The notes under the pieces: generated by a model
Told to the model about the DNA's origin: nothing
Database searches by the model: none
What the model saw: the letters and a program-made list of their open reading frames with translations, nothing else
DNA from: an uncultured Spirochaetaceae bacterium
Lineage (GTDB): Bacteria > Spirochaetota > Spirochaetia > Sphaerochaetales > Sphaerochaetaceae
Assembly: GCA_944389025.1 (NCBI GenBank)
Contig: CALXKU010000009.1
Span: 1-64,000 of the forward strand
DNA length: 64,000 bases
Direction: 5' to 3'
Shown: positions 1,060-11,557 of the stretch, one piece after another
How the letters are laid out: every line of letters starts with the position of its first letter
Position numbering within the stretch: the first letter of the stretch is position 1
Made by a program: the position numbers and the translations under genes

Positions 1060-2004
1060 ATGGATAAGAAACTGATTGTTATTGCCATCGGAGGCAATTC
1101 CCTTATTGAGGACAGCAAGCATGTTACCGTAAGCGCCCAGTACAAGGCGGCCAGCAAGACGGCTCACCATATCGCAAGGCTTATAAAGGAAGGTCATCGT
1201 GTTGTAATAGTTCATGGAAACGGTCCGCAGGTAGGCTATATCCTTCTCAGGGCCGAGTATGCGCGCAAGATTCTTCATGCGGTACCTCTTGATAGCTGTG
1301 TGGCAGATACCCAGGGTGCTATCGGATACCAGCTTCAGAAGGCTCTAGGCAATGAGCTCGAACTATTAGGAATTAAGGCTGATGTCGCAACAGTCGTTAC
1401 TCAGGTTCTGGTAAGCGATGATGACCCGTCGTTCTCAAATCCCACAAAGCCCATAGGCTCATTCATGCAGAAGGAGGAGGCTGAGTATCATAGGGATAAC
1501 GATGGCTGGGCGATAGTAGAGGATGCGGGTAGGGGATACCGCCGTGTCGTAGCATCCCCTCGTCCGACCGGTATAATAGAGAGTGGAACGATAAGAAAAC
1601 TCATAGATGCCGGTGTTATTGTGATTGCAGCCGGTGGTGGTGGCATTCCTGTCGTAAGGGAGGCCGACGGTCTTCTTTACGGAAGGGAGGCTGTTGTCGA
1701 TAAGGATCTTGCCGCGGCCCTCCTTGCAAAGGATATCGGGGCGGATTTATTCGTAATATCCACTGCGGTTGAGAAGGTGTGCCTTAATTATAATACTCCG
1801 GAAGAGAAGAAACTTGAGAGGATTACCGTCGCTGAGGCTGAGCAGTACGTGAAAGAAGGGCATTTCGCTCCGGGCTCAATGCTTCCGAAGATAAAGGCAC
1901 TGGAGGATTTCGTCTCAACTACAGGCAATACCGGTCTCATAACGGATCCCTCTCATCTTTATGATGCAATCTATTCGGATGCCGGTACCAAAATTGTTCC
2001 ATAA
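1060..2004 (+). CDS. arcC: Carbamate kinase
   Basis: This 314-residue protein matches the carbamate kinase length and fold: the opening IAIGGNSL nucleotide-binding glycine motif, VHGNGPQVG, the long central region with SIGSFMQKEEA-like residues, and IAAGGGGIPV. The enzyme makes ATP and ammonia plus CO2 from carbamoyl phosphate and ADP, usually as the last step of arginine, agmatine or purine-derived carbamoyl catabolism in the cytoplasm. The start at 1060 follows AGGAGTG. No arginine deiminase or ornithine carbamoyltransferase gene lies nearby, so it is a single-gene unit here, closed by a hairpin terminator at 2032. The source of its carbamoyl phosphate cannot be told from this window. Confidence 0.95.
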   Translation: MDKKLIVIAIGGNSLIEDSKHVTVSAQYKAASKTAHHIARLIKEGHRVVIVHGNGPQVGYILLRAEYARKILHAVPLDSCVADTQGAIGYQLQKALGNELELLGIKADVATVVTQVLVSDDDPSFSNPTKPIGSFMQKEEAEYHRDNDGWAIVEDAGRGYRRVVASPRPTGIIESGTIRKLIDAGVIVIAAGGGGIPVVREADGLLYGREAVVDKDLAAALLAKDIGADLFVISTAVEKVCLNYNTPEEKKLERITVAEAEQYVKEGHFAPGSMLPKIKALEDFVSTTGNTGLITDPSHLYDAIYSDAGTKIVP

Positions 2005-7875: not shown

Positions 7876-10293
7876 ATGCATAGTGATTATATGGTACACG
7901 CCATTGAGGGTGTGATGGTATCTACCAGAAGCGGTATATTGAAGCTTTTGGAGCTTTATAGGAAGGGCTCTGAAGGACATCAGGTTTTCGTAATTTCCCC
8001 CGTGAAGGATAATGAGCTTAGCCTCACAGCTCTGCTGGAGAGGGCTGAGAAGAAGGATGAGAAGCTCTGGGCCGTGATAGAAAGAAGCAGGAACAGCTGG
8101 CTTGAGCTGAGTGAAAACAGCCTTGAAAGCGACGTGACAAGCTCGGTCACAGAGGCGATAAACGCTTCATTCTCGAAAGTGGAGGATATACTTAAGGCGG
8201 TCTGGCTCCTTGAAAAAAGCAGTGATCAGAGCCGAATATATCTGGAGAGCATGACAAGCTTCTTCATAGCATCCATACTTTCATCCCTTTTCGAATCCAG
8301 CAATCTTGAAGCAAGTCTCTTTGACGCTTACGATGCGGTAAGACGTTCGTCTTTCCCCTCCGGCGCCTCATTCGTATACGGCAGAATGCTGGAGCCCGAG
8401 ACGGGGAGAAGCGATGCCCTTGGAAGGATCCGGCATGAGGGTGAGAGTGAGTACACGGCTTCATTAATAGCATCCAACATAGGCTCTGCGCTCACTTTCT
8501 GGAATCACAGATCCCTTCTTAGGACGGCAAGCATCAAGGATGTGCCAGGGGCGGATGTGATACGCAACTTAAGTTATGCGGAGGCTACCGAGCTCTCGTT
8601 CTTCGGTGCTCCCATCGTGCATCCCCATTCATTCATTCCCGCTCAGGCGAAGGGGCTTGATATCCACCTCAGGTACTGGGGGGACATAGATAGCGAGGGT
8701 ACTCTGGTATCAAAGGATGTGTTCAAGGATAAGGACAAGGCTGTGAAGGCTTTTTCCGTTGTCAGGAACGTATCCCTTATAAACGTGGAGGGAAGCGGCA
8801 TGTCGGGTGTCCCCGGTGTCTCGTCCCGTCTTTTCACCGCACTGAGGAACGAGATGATAAGTGTCATATTCATAAGCCAGGCTTCCAGTGAGTACTCGAT
8901 CTGTTTCGCTGTTCCTAAGTCTGACAGCCTCGGAGCTCTTCGGACCATACGTAAGGAATTCAGCGAAGAGCTTGGCAAGAAGGCCATAAACAGCATAGAG
9001 GTTGAGAACGACTGTGCAATACTGGCCGCCGTGGGAGAGGAGATGCCGGGCGCGATCGGTGTTGCGGGCAAGTTCTTCTCATCCTTGGCAAAGAGTAACG
9101 TGAATGTGCGTGCGATTGCGCAGGGCTCAAGCGAGAGGAACATCTCCGCCGTCATAAAGATGGAGGATTCTGCAAAGGCCCTTAGAAGCCTGCACTCAGG
9201 ATTCTTCATGTCTGCACAGACCCTCTCTGTCGGTCTCTTCGGACCGGGTAACATCGGAGGAACGCTGCTTGACCAGATTGCAAGGGAATCTGAGAGGCTC
9301 AGAAAGCAGTTCGATCTTGATATCAGGATTCGTGGGATTGCCACGAGCAGCAAGATGCTCCTCTCCGATGAGGGGGTGAATCTCAGCTCCTGGAGAGAGC
9401 AGTTTGAGAAATACGCGGTAGTCTACAACGAGAAGATATTCATGGAACATATAGCGGCCTCATACTATCCGCACAAGGTGATCATTGATTGCACCTCGAG
9501 CCAGGAGAGGGCGCTCACATATAAGAGCCTGCTGGATGCCGGTTTCCATATCATAACGCCTAACAAGAAGGCGAACAGCTCATCTTACGACTACTACAGC
9601 AGTTTGATCGAGACTTCACGTAAGACGGGAAGCAAGTACTATTACGAGACGACGGTAGGAGCCGGGCTTCCGATAATAACGACGCTAAAGGATTTGAGGG
9701 AGACGGGGGATAGCATACTCAAGGTCGAAGGCATGGTATCCGGAACTCTCGCATGGCTTTTCAGCAGTTATGATGGCACTCTCCCTTTCAGCTCGCTTGT
9801 CCTCAAGGCGAAGGAGATGGGGTATACGGAGCCGGACCCGAGGGATGACCTATCAGGAATGGATGTCGCGAGAAAGACCGTCATTCTTGCCCGTGAAATG
9901 GGCTACAGGACCGAGGTCGAGGATATCAGGATCGAGTCCCTTGTCCCCGAGGATCTCAGGACCGCAAGCAAGGATGAGTTCTTGAGCCGTCTCAGCGCGA
10001 TGGATGATAAGATGAGGGATCTTTTCGTCTCAGCCAGGGCCGAAGGGAAGAACATAAGGTATGTCGGAAAGGTTGATGAGGATGGAAAATGCTCGGTTGG
10101 CCTTGAGCTCTATCCAGATGACCATCCATTCAGCCAAGCTCATGGGACTGATAATGTCATAGCATTCACTACAGAGAGATATTTCAATCAGCCGCTTGTC
10201 ATAAAAGGACCCGGTGCCGGACCGGAAGTCACGGCAGCCGGAGTGTTCGCAGACATGCTCCGCCTCGGGGCATATCTTGGCAGCAGGATATAA
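7876..10293 (+). CDS. thrA: ThrA-like fusion: degenerate aspartokinase, ACT domains, homoserine dehydrogenase
   Basis: An 805-residue protein with the same layout as E. coli ThrA: kinase region (about 1-285), two ACT domains (about 290-445) and homoserine dehydrogenase (about 450-805). The dehydrogenase half is intact: GLFGPGNIGG for NAD(P), NKKAN, VGAGLPIITTL, GYTEPDPRDDLSGMD with its catalytic Asp, and GAGPEVTAAGVFADM. The ACT part keeps SSEYSI and AQGSSERNIS. The kinase half is recognisable by position (LSYAEATELSFFGAPIVHP) but lacks the family signatures: AIEGVMVST replaces KFGGTSV, EGESEYTA replaces GGSDYTA, and the DVDGV loop is gone. It probably makes homoserine only; a separate aspartokinase would be needed. 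The start follows AGGGAG. It lies 10 bases before thrC. Confidence 0.88.
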   Translation: MHSDYMVHAIEGVMVSTRSGILKLLELYRKGSEGHQVFVISPVKDNELSLTALLERAEKKDEKLWAVIERSRNSWLELSENSLESDVTSSVTEAINASFSKVEDILKAVWLLEKSSDQSRIYLESMTSFFIASILSSLFESSNLEASLFDAYDAVRRSSFPSGASFVYGRMLEPETGRSDALGRIRHEGESEYTASLIASNIGSALTFWNHRSLLRTASIKDVPGADVIRNLSYAEATELSFFGAPIVHPHSFIPAQAKGLDIHLRYWGDIDSEGTLVSKDVFKDKDKAVKAFSVVRNVSLINVEGSGMSGVPGVSSRLFTALRNEMISVIFISQASSEYSICFAVPKSDSLGALRTIRKEFSEELGKKAINSIEVENDCAILAAVGEEMPGAIGVAGKFFSSLAKSNVNVRAIAQGSSERNISAVIKMEDSAKALRSLHSGFFMSAQTLSVGLFGPGNIGGTLLDQIARESERLRKQFDLDIRIRGIATSSKMLLSDEGVNLSSWREQFEKYAVVYNEKIFMEHIAASYYPHKVIIDCTSSQERALTYKSLLDAGFHIITPNKKANSSSYDYYSSLIETSRKTGSKYYYETTVGAGLPIITTLKDLRETGDSILKVEGMVSGTLAWLFSSYDGTLPFSSLVLKAKEMGYTEPDPRDDLSGMDVARKTVILAREMGYRTEVEDIRIESLVPEDLRTASKDEFLSRLSAMDDKMRDLFVSARAEGKNIRYVGKVDEDGKCSVGLELYPDDHPFSQAHGTDNVIAFTTERYFNQPLVIKGPGAGPEVTAAGVFADMLRLGAYLGSRI

Positions 10294-10303
10294 GGGAGGA
10301 TAT

Positions 10304-11557
10304 ATGTATTTCGTATCTACACGTGATGAGAGTGGAAGTAAATTCACAGCATCTGAGGCGATAATGAAAGGCCTTGCACCGGATGGGGGGCTCTTCGTTC
10401 CTGAGAGGATACCGGACCTCGGCCCGGATTTCACGATGGAGAAGGGCTACGCATATGCGGCATATGAGGTAATAAAACCATATTTCGAAGGAGATGAAGC
10501 CCTTGATGATCTCTATGACATATGCCAGAAAGCGTTCAATTTCCCCGTAAGTTTTCACACGAGGGAAGGCAAGGATACTCTTGAGCTATACTGGGGACCT
10601 ACATCAGCCTTCAAGGATTTCGGTGCAAGATTTCTTGCGTTTTTCATGGAATCACGTCTTAAAAAGAGCGGAGAGGACCTTACGGTGCTTGTTGCGACAA
10701 GCGGGGATACGGGTGGGGCTGTTGCCTCCGCATTCCATGAGAGGGAGCACCTTCGGGTGAAGGTTCTCTTCCCTAAAGGCGGGGTATCGGAGAGGCAGAT
10801 GAGGCAGCTGACATGCTTTGATGGCAACGTCGAGGCTTTCGAGGTCAATGGAACATTCGATGACTGTCAGAAGATGGTCAAGGATGCCTTCATGGATCCC
10901 TCTCTTCATGGTCTGACGAGTGCGAACAGTATAAATCTTGGGCGCCTTCTTCCCCAGGTCGTGTATTACGTATGGGCATCTTTCATCTATAAGGCACGCT
11001 ATGGCAGGGAGGCTGTTTTCATCGTTCCAAGCGGTAATGTCGGAAATTCCACCGGTGCCTTCTGGGCTAAGGCGATGGGAGCTCCGATAAGGCATATCGA
11101 GCTTGCGGTGAACGCCAATCGCACAATACCCGATTATCTTGAAAGCGGTGAGTACAGACCGAGAAAGAGCTGTCACACACTTGCGAACGCGATGGATGTC
11201 GGGGCTCCGAGCAATATGGAGAGGCTCTTTAATCTGTTTAAAAGCTATGACGAGTTCAAGGCGAATGTCACAAGCCACAGCGTCGATGACTACAAGATAA
11301 GGACTACGATAAGGGAGGTCTTTGAAGAGGAGGGCTATCTCATCTGTCCTCATACCGCATGTGCCGAGTATGTAAGGCGTAAATATTACGACGGAAAGCC
11401 CACTGTTGTCGTCTCAACCGCGCATCCTGCGAAATTTGAGAGCATAGTAGAGCCGATCATCGGGAAGACGGTAGCTATCCCGGAGACCCTTTATGACATG
11501 CTTACCCGTGATTGCAGCTACACGGAGATAGGAACGGATTACAGGGATCTGTTCTGA
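10304..11557 (+). CDS. thrC: Threonine synthase
   Basis: A 417-residue PLP enzyme that converts O-phosphohomoserine to threonine. The PLP lysine lies in SAFKDFGARF (Lys104), with ATSGDTGGAVA and VPSGNVGNSTGAF forming the phosphate-binding loops. It matches the longer bacterial ThrC type that opens with STRD and A-P-D-GGLFVP. The start at 10304 follows GGGAGG; a longer frame from 10214 overlaps thrA and is not needed. It is cotranscribed with the upstream thrA-like gene. Homoserine kinase (thrB) is not in the window. Confidence 0.95.
   Translation: MYFVSTRDESGSKFTASEAIMKGLAPDGGLFVPERIPDLGPDFTMEKGYAYAAYEVIKPYFEGDEALDDLYDICQKAFNFPVSFHTREGKDTLELYWGPTSAFKDFGARFLAFFMESRLKKSGEDLTVLVATSGDTGGAVASAFHEREHLRVKVLFPKGGVSERQMRQLTCFDGNVEAFEVNGTFDDCQKMVKDAFMDPSLHGLTSANSINLGRLLPQVVYYVWASFIYKARYGREAVFIVPSGNVGNSTGAFWAKAMGAPIRHIELAVNANRTIPDYLESGEYRPRKSCHTLANAMDVGAPSNMERLFNLFKSYDEFKANVTSHSVDDYKIRTTIREVFEEEGYLICPHTACAEYVRRKYYDGKPTVVVSTAHPAKFESIVEPIIGKTVAIPETLYDMLTRDCSYTEIGTDYRDLF

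Follow-up and report, generated by a model that had tools for sequence, protein, structure and literature searches.

A ThrA-type fusion of Sphaerochaetaceae as a probable threonine-regulated homoserine dehydrogenase with a degenerate aspartokinase half

The fusion gene and its surroundings

The DNA analyzed here, referred to as the window, is a 64,000-nucleotide stretch of contig CALXKU010000009.1 from an uncultured Spirochaetaceae bacterium, whose genome of 2.31 Mb in 39 contigs is about 98% complete. The window carries an open reading frame of 805 codons that starts with ATG, is preceded by a plausible ribosome-binding site (aGGGAGctaattt-ATG), and is followed by thrC, a gene order that is preserved in the family loci we examined (Table 1). 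Named relatives of the encoded fusion protein are found in Candidatus Ornithospirochaeta stercorigallinarum (87%), Bullifex porci (59%), and a Sphaerochaeta sp. (56%), which makes Sphaerochaetaceae the most likely family of the organism.

Above the Pfam cut-offs, the protein matches ACT_9 twice, ACT_7, NAD_binding_3, and Homoserine_dh. A search of the same reading frame with AA_kinase (PF00696) returned no match even at an E value of 10, and the fusion is not among the five places in the genome where PF00696 is recognized. The NCBIfam ThrA model NF006959 scores the protein at 804 bits, above its cut-off of 726, with the best stretch covering residues 174-800. The Pfam layout together with the predicted fold gives the domain order kinase-ACT-homoserine dehydrogenase; the ORF, Pfam, and NF006959 thus confirm the complete 805-residue layout that an earlier, sequence-only reading of this DNA had proposed. 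A carbamate-kinase-like ORF lying near the fusion on the same contig is an unrelated PF00696 member.

Table 1. Features of the fusion gene and neighboring genes (positions are those of the window)
Feature	Residues	Positions	Strand
Carbamate-kinase-like ORF		1060..2004	
ThrA-type fusion: putatively dead aspartokinase half, two ACT domains, homoserine dehydrogenase	805 aa	7876..10293	+
Predicted pseudokinase N-lobe, without KFGGTSV and the RGE glutamate	1-185	7876..8430	+
Place of KFGGTSV, now A-I-E-G-V-M-V	9-15	7900..7920	+
Predicted pseudokinase C-lobe, LSYAEATELSFFGAPIVHP retained	186-290	8431..8745	+
Place of R-G-G-S-D, now E-G-E-S-E	188-192	8437..8451	+
Place of W-T-D-V, now W-N-H-R	209-212	8500..8511	+
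Tandem ACT regulatory domain	291-445	8746..9210	+
Threonine-site motif 1, ISQASSEYSI	333-342	8872..8901	+
Threonine-site motif 2, IAQGSSERNI	414-423	9115..9144	+
Homoserine dehydrogenase	446-805	9211..10290	+
thrC, threonine synthase, 10 bases downstream of the fusion		10304..11557	+

The former aspartokinase active site

The kinase half was aligned with Escherichia coli LysC, ThrA, and MetL, with intact spirochaete fusions, and with the genome's own LysC, and was scored at 21 positions that we take, from aspartokinase structures, to make up the active site. The fusion protein has the intact consensus residue at 4 of these 21 positions, compared with 13-21 in intact fusions, 20 in E. coli LysC, 18 in the genome's LysC, and 15 in E. 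coli MetL. The KFGGTSV, RGE, GGSD, and TDVDG elements of an aspartokinase active site are not intact. Given as LysC/ThrA residue and its counterpart here, the substitutions are K8/K5 to A9 and G10/G7 to E11 in the KFGGTSV region; T45/T44 to E47 and E119/E127 to S128; R198/R204 to E188, G200/G206 to E190, and D202/D208 to E192; and T221/T227 to N210, D222/D228 to H211, and K257/K263 to P246. Catalytic Lys and Asp residues were also sought at shifted positions in the alignment, and none were visible. In AKIII, Arg198 and Ser201 bind aspartate, while Thr221 and Arg232 bind ATP (PMC3195717). Of these four, the fusion protein retains Ser201, has a lysine in place of Arg232, and has other residues for Arg198 and Thr221.

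Relatives share these changes. In a set of 77 non-eroded degenerate sequences (66 from the family, including the fusion protein, and 11 from other families), every member has a Glu (E192) in place of the catalytic Asp (D202); within the family, W209 is present in 66/66 and N210 in 65/66 sequences. Sequencing or assembly error was considered as the cause of the motif loss and rejected, because the same kind of replacement recurs in the 66 distinct family sequences and the 11 others. The sequence-only reading had stated that the KFGGTSV, GGSD, and DVDGV signatures are replaced and that the N-terminal half is catalytically dead. Comparison with E. coli LysC and ThrA bears out the first statement and agrees with the second, in that substitutions have removed the catalytic Lys and Asp, the Arg and Glu that bind aspartate, and the residues of the ATP loop, also across relatives. 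We infer from these alignments that the aspartokinase half has lost its phosphotransfer chemistry. Continued aspartokinase activity through non-canonical residues could draw on the retained S41, S191, and W209, but we find it scarcely credible given the loss of the Lys, Arg, Glu, and Asp and of most of the ATP loop, and the presence of a LysC with canonical residues.

The former active site has not simply drifted. Mean conservation at its 21 positions is 0.71 versus 0.54 in the rest of the kinase half, a level reached by 20 of 10,000 random position sets (0.2%). Because these positions are more conserved than the remaining kinase half, we read them as a new consensus, which includes A9, E11, E192, N210, and P246, and not as random decay. 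Five further residues, W65, E103, W110, P224, and T238, are conserved in the degenerate group and not in intact kinases. An invariant E192 with W209, N210, and H8, plus the clade-specific W65, E103, and W110, might form a new conserved site for a new effector or partner, which would make the kinase half a newly evolved sensor domain of the homoserine dehydrogenase; we consider this proposal rather unlikely.

Distribution, origin, and separate pathway enzymes

Counting matches above 280 bits, the fusion is present in 110 of 139 Sphaerochaetaceae genomes; elsewhere in the family, it has been replaced or lost in some members. Two full-length degenerate copies share one genome in G053 (L015 and L091) and also in G006 (L070). 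A search for degenerate fusions within Spirochaetia found the full-length degenerate state in five further families (f2, f3, f15, f19, and f22; family codes are anonymous labels), although in f19 the Lys of position 8 and some loop parts are still present. Intact kinases are found in the fusions of f21, f38, f41, and f4 and in two full-length Bacteroidota matches.

Only alignment columns of the ACT domains and the dehydrogenase went into a tree, and the very long branches of MetL, L052, and L087-L089, which made a first version unreliable, were left out. In this tree, every degenerate sequence falls on one side of one branch (bootstrap 98, SH-aLRT 96), corresponding to one change, and a single origin of the degenerate kinase half therefore suffices. 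In three genera (L084-L089), much of the N-lobe subsequently disappeared. The fusions of L084-L089 and L050 are approximately 650-750 aa long, with much of the N-lobe gone and the dehydrogenase catalytic residues retained, and represent later stages of erosion.

The genome's LysC, with the 18 active-site residues counted above, lies on another contig than the fusion, and a clear LysC relative is found in 105 of the 110 Sphaerochaetaceae genomes with a fusion, the five without being G009, G033, G057, G062, and G104. G033 (L056) and G062 (L031), at 94-95% estimated completeness, carry the putatively dead-kinase fusion, and an aspartokinase profile search of these two genomes returned no full-length match besides the fusion, indicating either an assembly gap or a loss of the pathway's first step. 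The sequence-only reading had held that an aspartokinase must be encoded elsewhere and had suggested looking for a lysC: the gene was found, and the claim holds for this genome and for the great majority of its relatives, while its "must" has apparent exceptions in these two genomes. Since LysC also occurs in many genomes with intact fusions, redundancy was probably the starting point for losing the fused kinase.

No homoserine kinase, for the step between homoserine and phosphohomoserine, was recognized in this genome, so that its threonine route is traced only in part: searches with TIGR00191, TIGR02535, and TIGR00938 gave no match above cut-off, and a weak GHMP match is IspE. Among 296 Spirochaetia genomes, only 11 have a classical ThrB above the cut-off, and Spirochaetia may contain an unrecognized homoserine kinase. 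We considered whether the dead half could itself be that enzyme and dropped the idea, as ThrB is scarce whatever the state of the fusion and its absence does not track degeneration. The broader possibility that the former active site was remade for another ligand, as a new sensor or as a new enzyme such as a homoserine kinase, gains something from the new consensus and from the lack of a known homoserine kinase type in the genome. We nevertheless judge it improbable, since phosphotransfer would be expected to need two lysines and an Asp that the half no longer has, and ThrB is missing alongside intact fusions too.

Fold, threonine motifs, and comparison with known systems

An AlphaFold model of the fusion protein (pLDDT 88.2) aligns with the threonine-sensitive aspartokinase of Methanocaldococcus jannaschii (3c1n) at Z 36.1 and 2.2 Å over 421 residues and with yeast homoserine dehydrogenase (1ebf) at Z 43.3 over 350 residues; its ACT regulatory domain shares 40% identity with the ThrA regulatory domain 6mx1 in the structure alignment. 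As modeled, the full aspartokinase and ACT fold is preserved despite the lack of a PF00696 match. The model fits threonine-bound 3c1n (2.2 Å) better than active 2hmf (3.2 Å), and an inhibited state was considered on this ground. The idea was dropped: intact Rhodohalobacter ThrA, modeled much alike, prefers the threonine-bound form too (2.1 versus 2.9 Å), so the preference is uninformative.

Eight close pairs (dS 0.33-0.52) gave dN/dS values of 0.04-0.09 for the N-lobe, mostly 0.01-0.06 for the C-lobe, 0.01-0.04 for the ACT domains, and 0.01-0.08 for the dehydrogenase; one C-lobe value of 0.31 stems from a pair whose C-lobes show hardly any synonymous change. The degenerate kinase half is thus under strong purifying selection. 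Lineages that have shed much of the N-lobe, and others that have replaced or lost the fusion, would fit a functionless relic heading for loss. Within the family, however, the half keeps its full length and dN/dS stays well under 1, and the same full-length state recurs in the five other families, which renders a relic very improbable.

Both ACT domains carry a threonine-site motif, and the two agree with their counterparts in the threonine-sensitive M. jannaschii enzyme and in 6mx1. None of the 66 family and 11 other degenerate sequences deviates at Q335, E339, Q416, or E420; the paired glutamines, Q335 and Q416, are presumably equivalent to the glutamines that bind threonine in the Arabidopsis enzyme. 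In E. coli MetL, both motifs are largely lost; one study lists no inhibitor for MetL, whereas E. coli ThrA dropped to 14% activity in the presence of threonine (PMC12925634). The dehydrogenase, the only one for homoserine in the genome, has K564, E652, D654, D658, D663, and K667, which are invariant in the non-eroded degenerate set. In an archaeal homoserine dehydrogenase, homoserine is bound by two Lys and an Asp (PMC5893615). The view of the sequence-only reading that the ACT and dehydrogenase parts are well kept is therefore upheld. Its suggestion of a regulatory role for the dead half gains support from the fold preserved in the model, from purifying selection, and from the essentially invariant threonine motifs.

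A conserved motif is no guarantee of inhibition, however: Vibrio natriegens ThrA, which has ACT domains, retained 80% of its activity in the presence of threonine (PMC12925634). The pseudokinase half might serve the dehydrogenase solely in folding or in assembling the oligomer, with ligand sensing lost or secondary. The weak response of the V. natriegens enzyme is in line with this, as are the many substitutions tolerated in the N-lobe and its dN/dS values, mostly above those of the ACT domains and the dehydrogenase. Pure assembly does not require the near invariance of both threonine motifs in the 77 sequences, and it sits poorly with their decay in two of the three N-lobe-deleted lineages (L050/L084/L085 and L088/L089). 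The third, L087, keeps most of both motifs, and N-lobe and sensing are therefore not strictly tied. On balance, we regard an assembly-only role as unlikely.

We favor, with reasonable confidence, the reading that the fusion has homoserine dehydrogenase as its sole activity, is regulated by threonine, and retains the dead kinase half as an allosteric scaffold. That half probably persists as a handle through which the working dehydrogenase half is controlled, a separate gene supplying the lost activity. LysC would make the first pathway step, and the folded pseudokinase half would serve as scaffold for the ACT domains. Threonine could bind the two ACT sites and shift the ACT domains and the pseudokinase, which contribute to oligomer formation in related enzymes, so that the dehydrogenase is inhibited and the flow of aspartate semialdehyde into homoserine and threonine comes under feedback control.

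Relative to the sequence-only reading, the present analysis adds the breadth of the degenerate state, the finding that one origin suffices for it, the constraint on it, and the partner LysC; a search of the available literature for a Sphaerochaeta homoserine dehydrogenase or a dead-kinase fusion found no paper. The family offers a natural experiment on the classic bifunctional ThrA, in which one activity appears to have been removed and the fold and threonine sensor retained, and the parts that carry the threonine signal to the dehydrogenase thereby become testable. Annotation by the curated model yields a bifunctional aspartokinase although the kinase is probably dead, an assignment that would misdirect metabolic models of these spirochaetes. 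Because this ThrA homologue lacks an intact aspartokinase active site, it should be named a homoserine dehydrogenase with an aspartokinase-like regulatory domain and not a bifunctional enzyme.

The fusion protein shares domain order, length, ACT threonine motifs, and dehydrogenase catalytic residues with E. coli ThrA, which unlike it has a working kinase with a full active site. E. coli MetL has the same fusion layout and the reverse pattern, in that most kinase positions are kept and the two threonine motifs are largely gone. The M. jannaschii threonine-sensitive aspartokinase (2hmf, 3c1m, and 3c1n) resembles residues 5-446 in fold (Z 35-36) and has both threonine motifs, but is an active monofunctional kinase without a dehydrogenase. 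In N-acetylglutamate synthase, the amino-acid-kinase domain holds an allosteric arginine site (PMC5146650). By analogy, the shared principle would be an amino-acid-kinase-fold domain that regulates a fused second enzyme; there, that enzyme is an acetyltransferase and the arginine site lies within the kinase domain, whereas the fusion protein has no acetyltransferase domain, its fused enzyme is homoserine dehydrogenase, and its putative threonine sites lie in the ACT domains.
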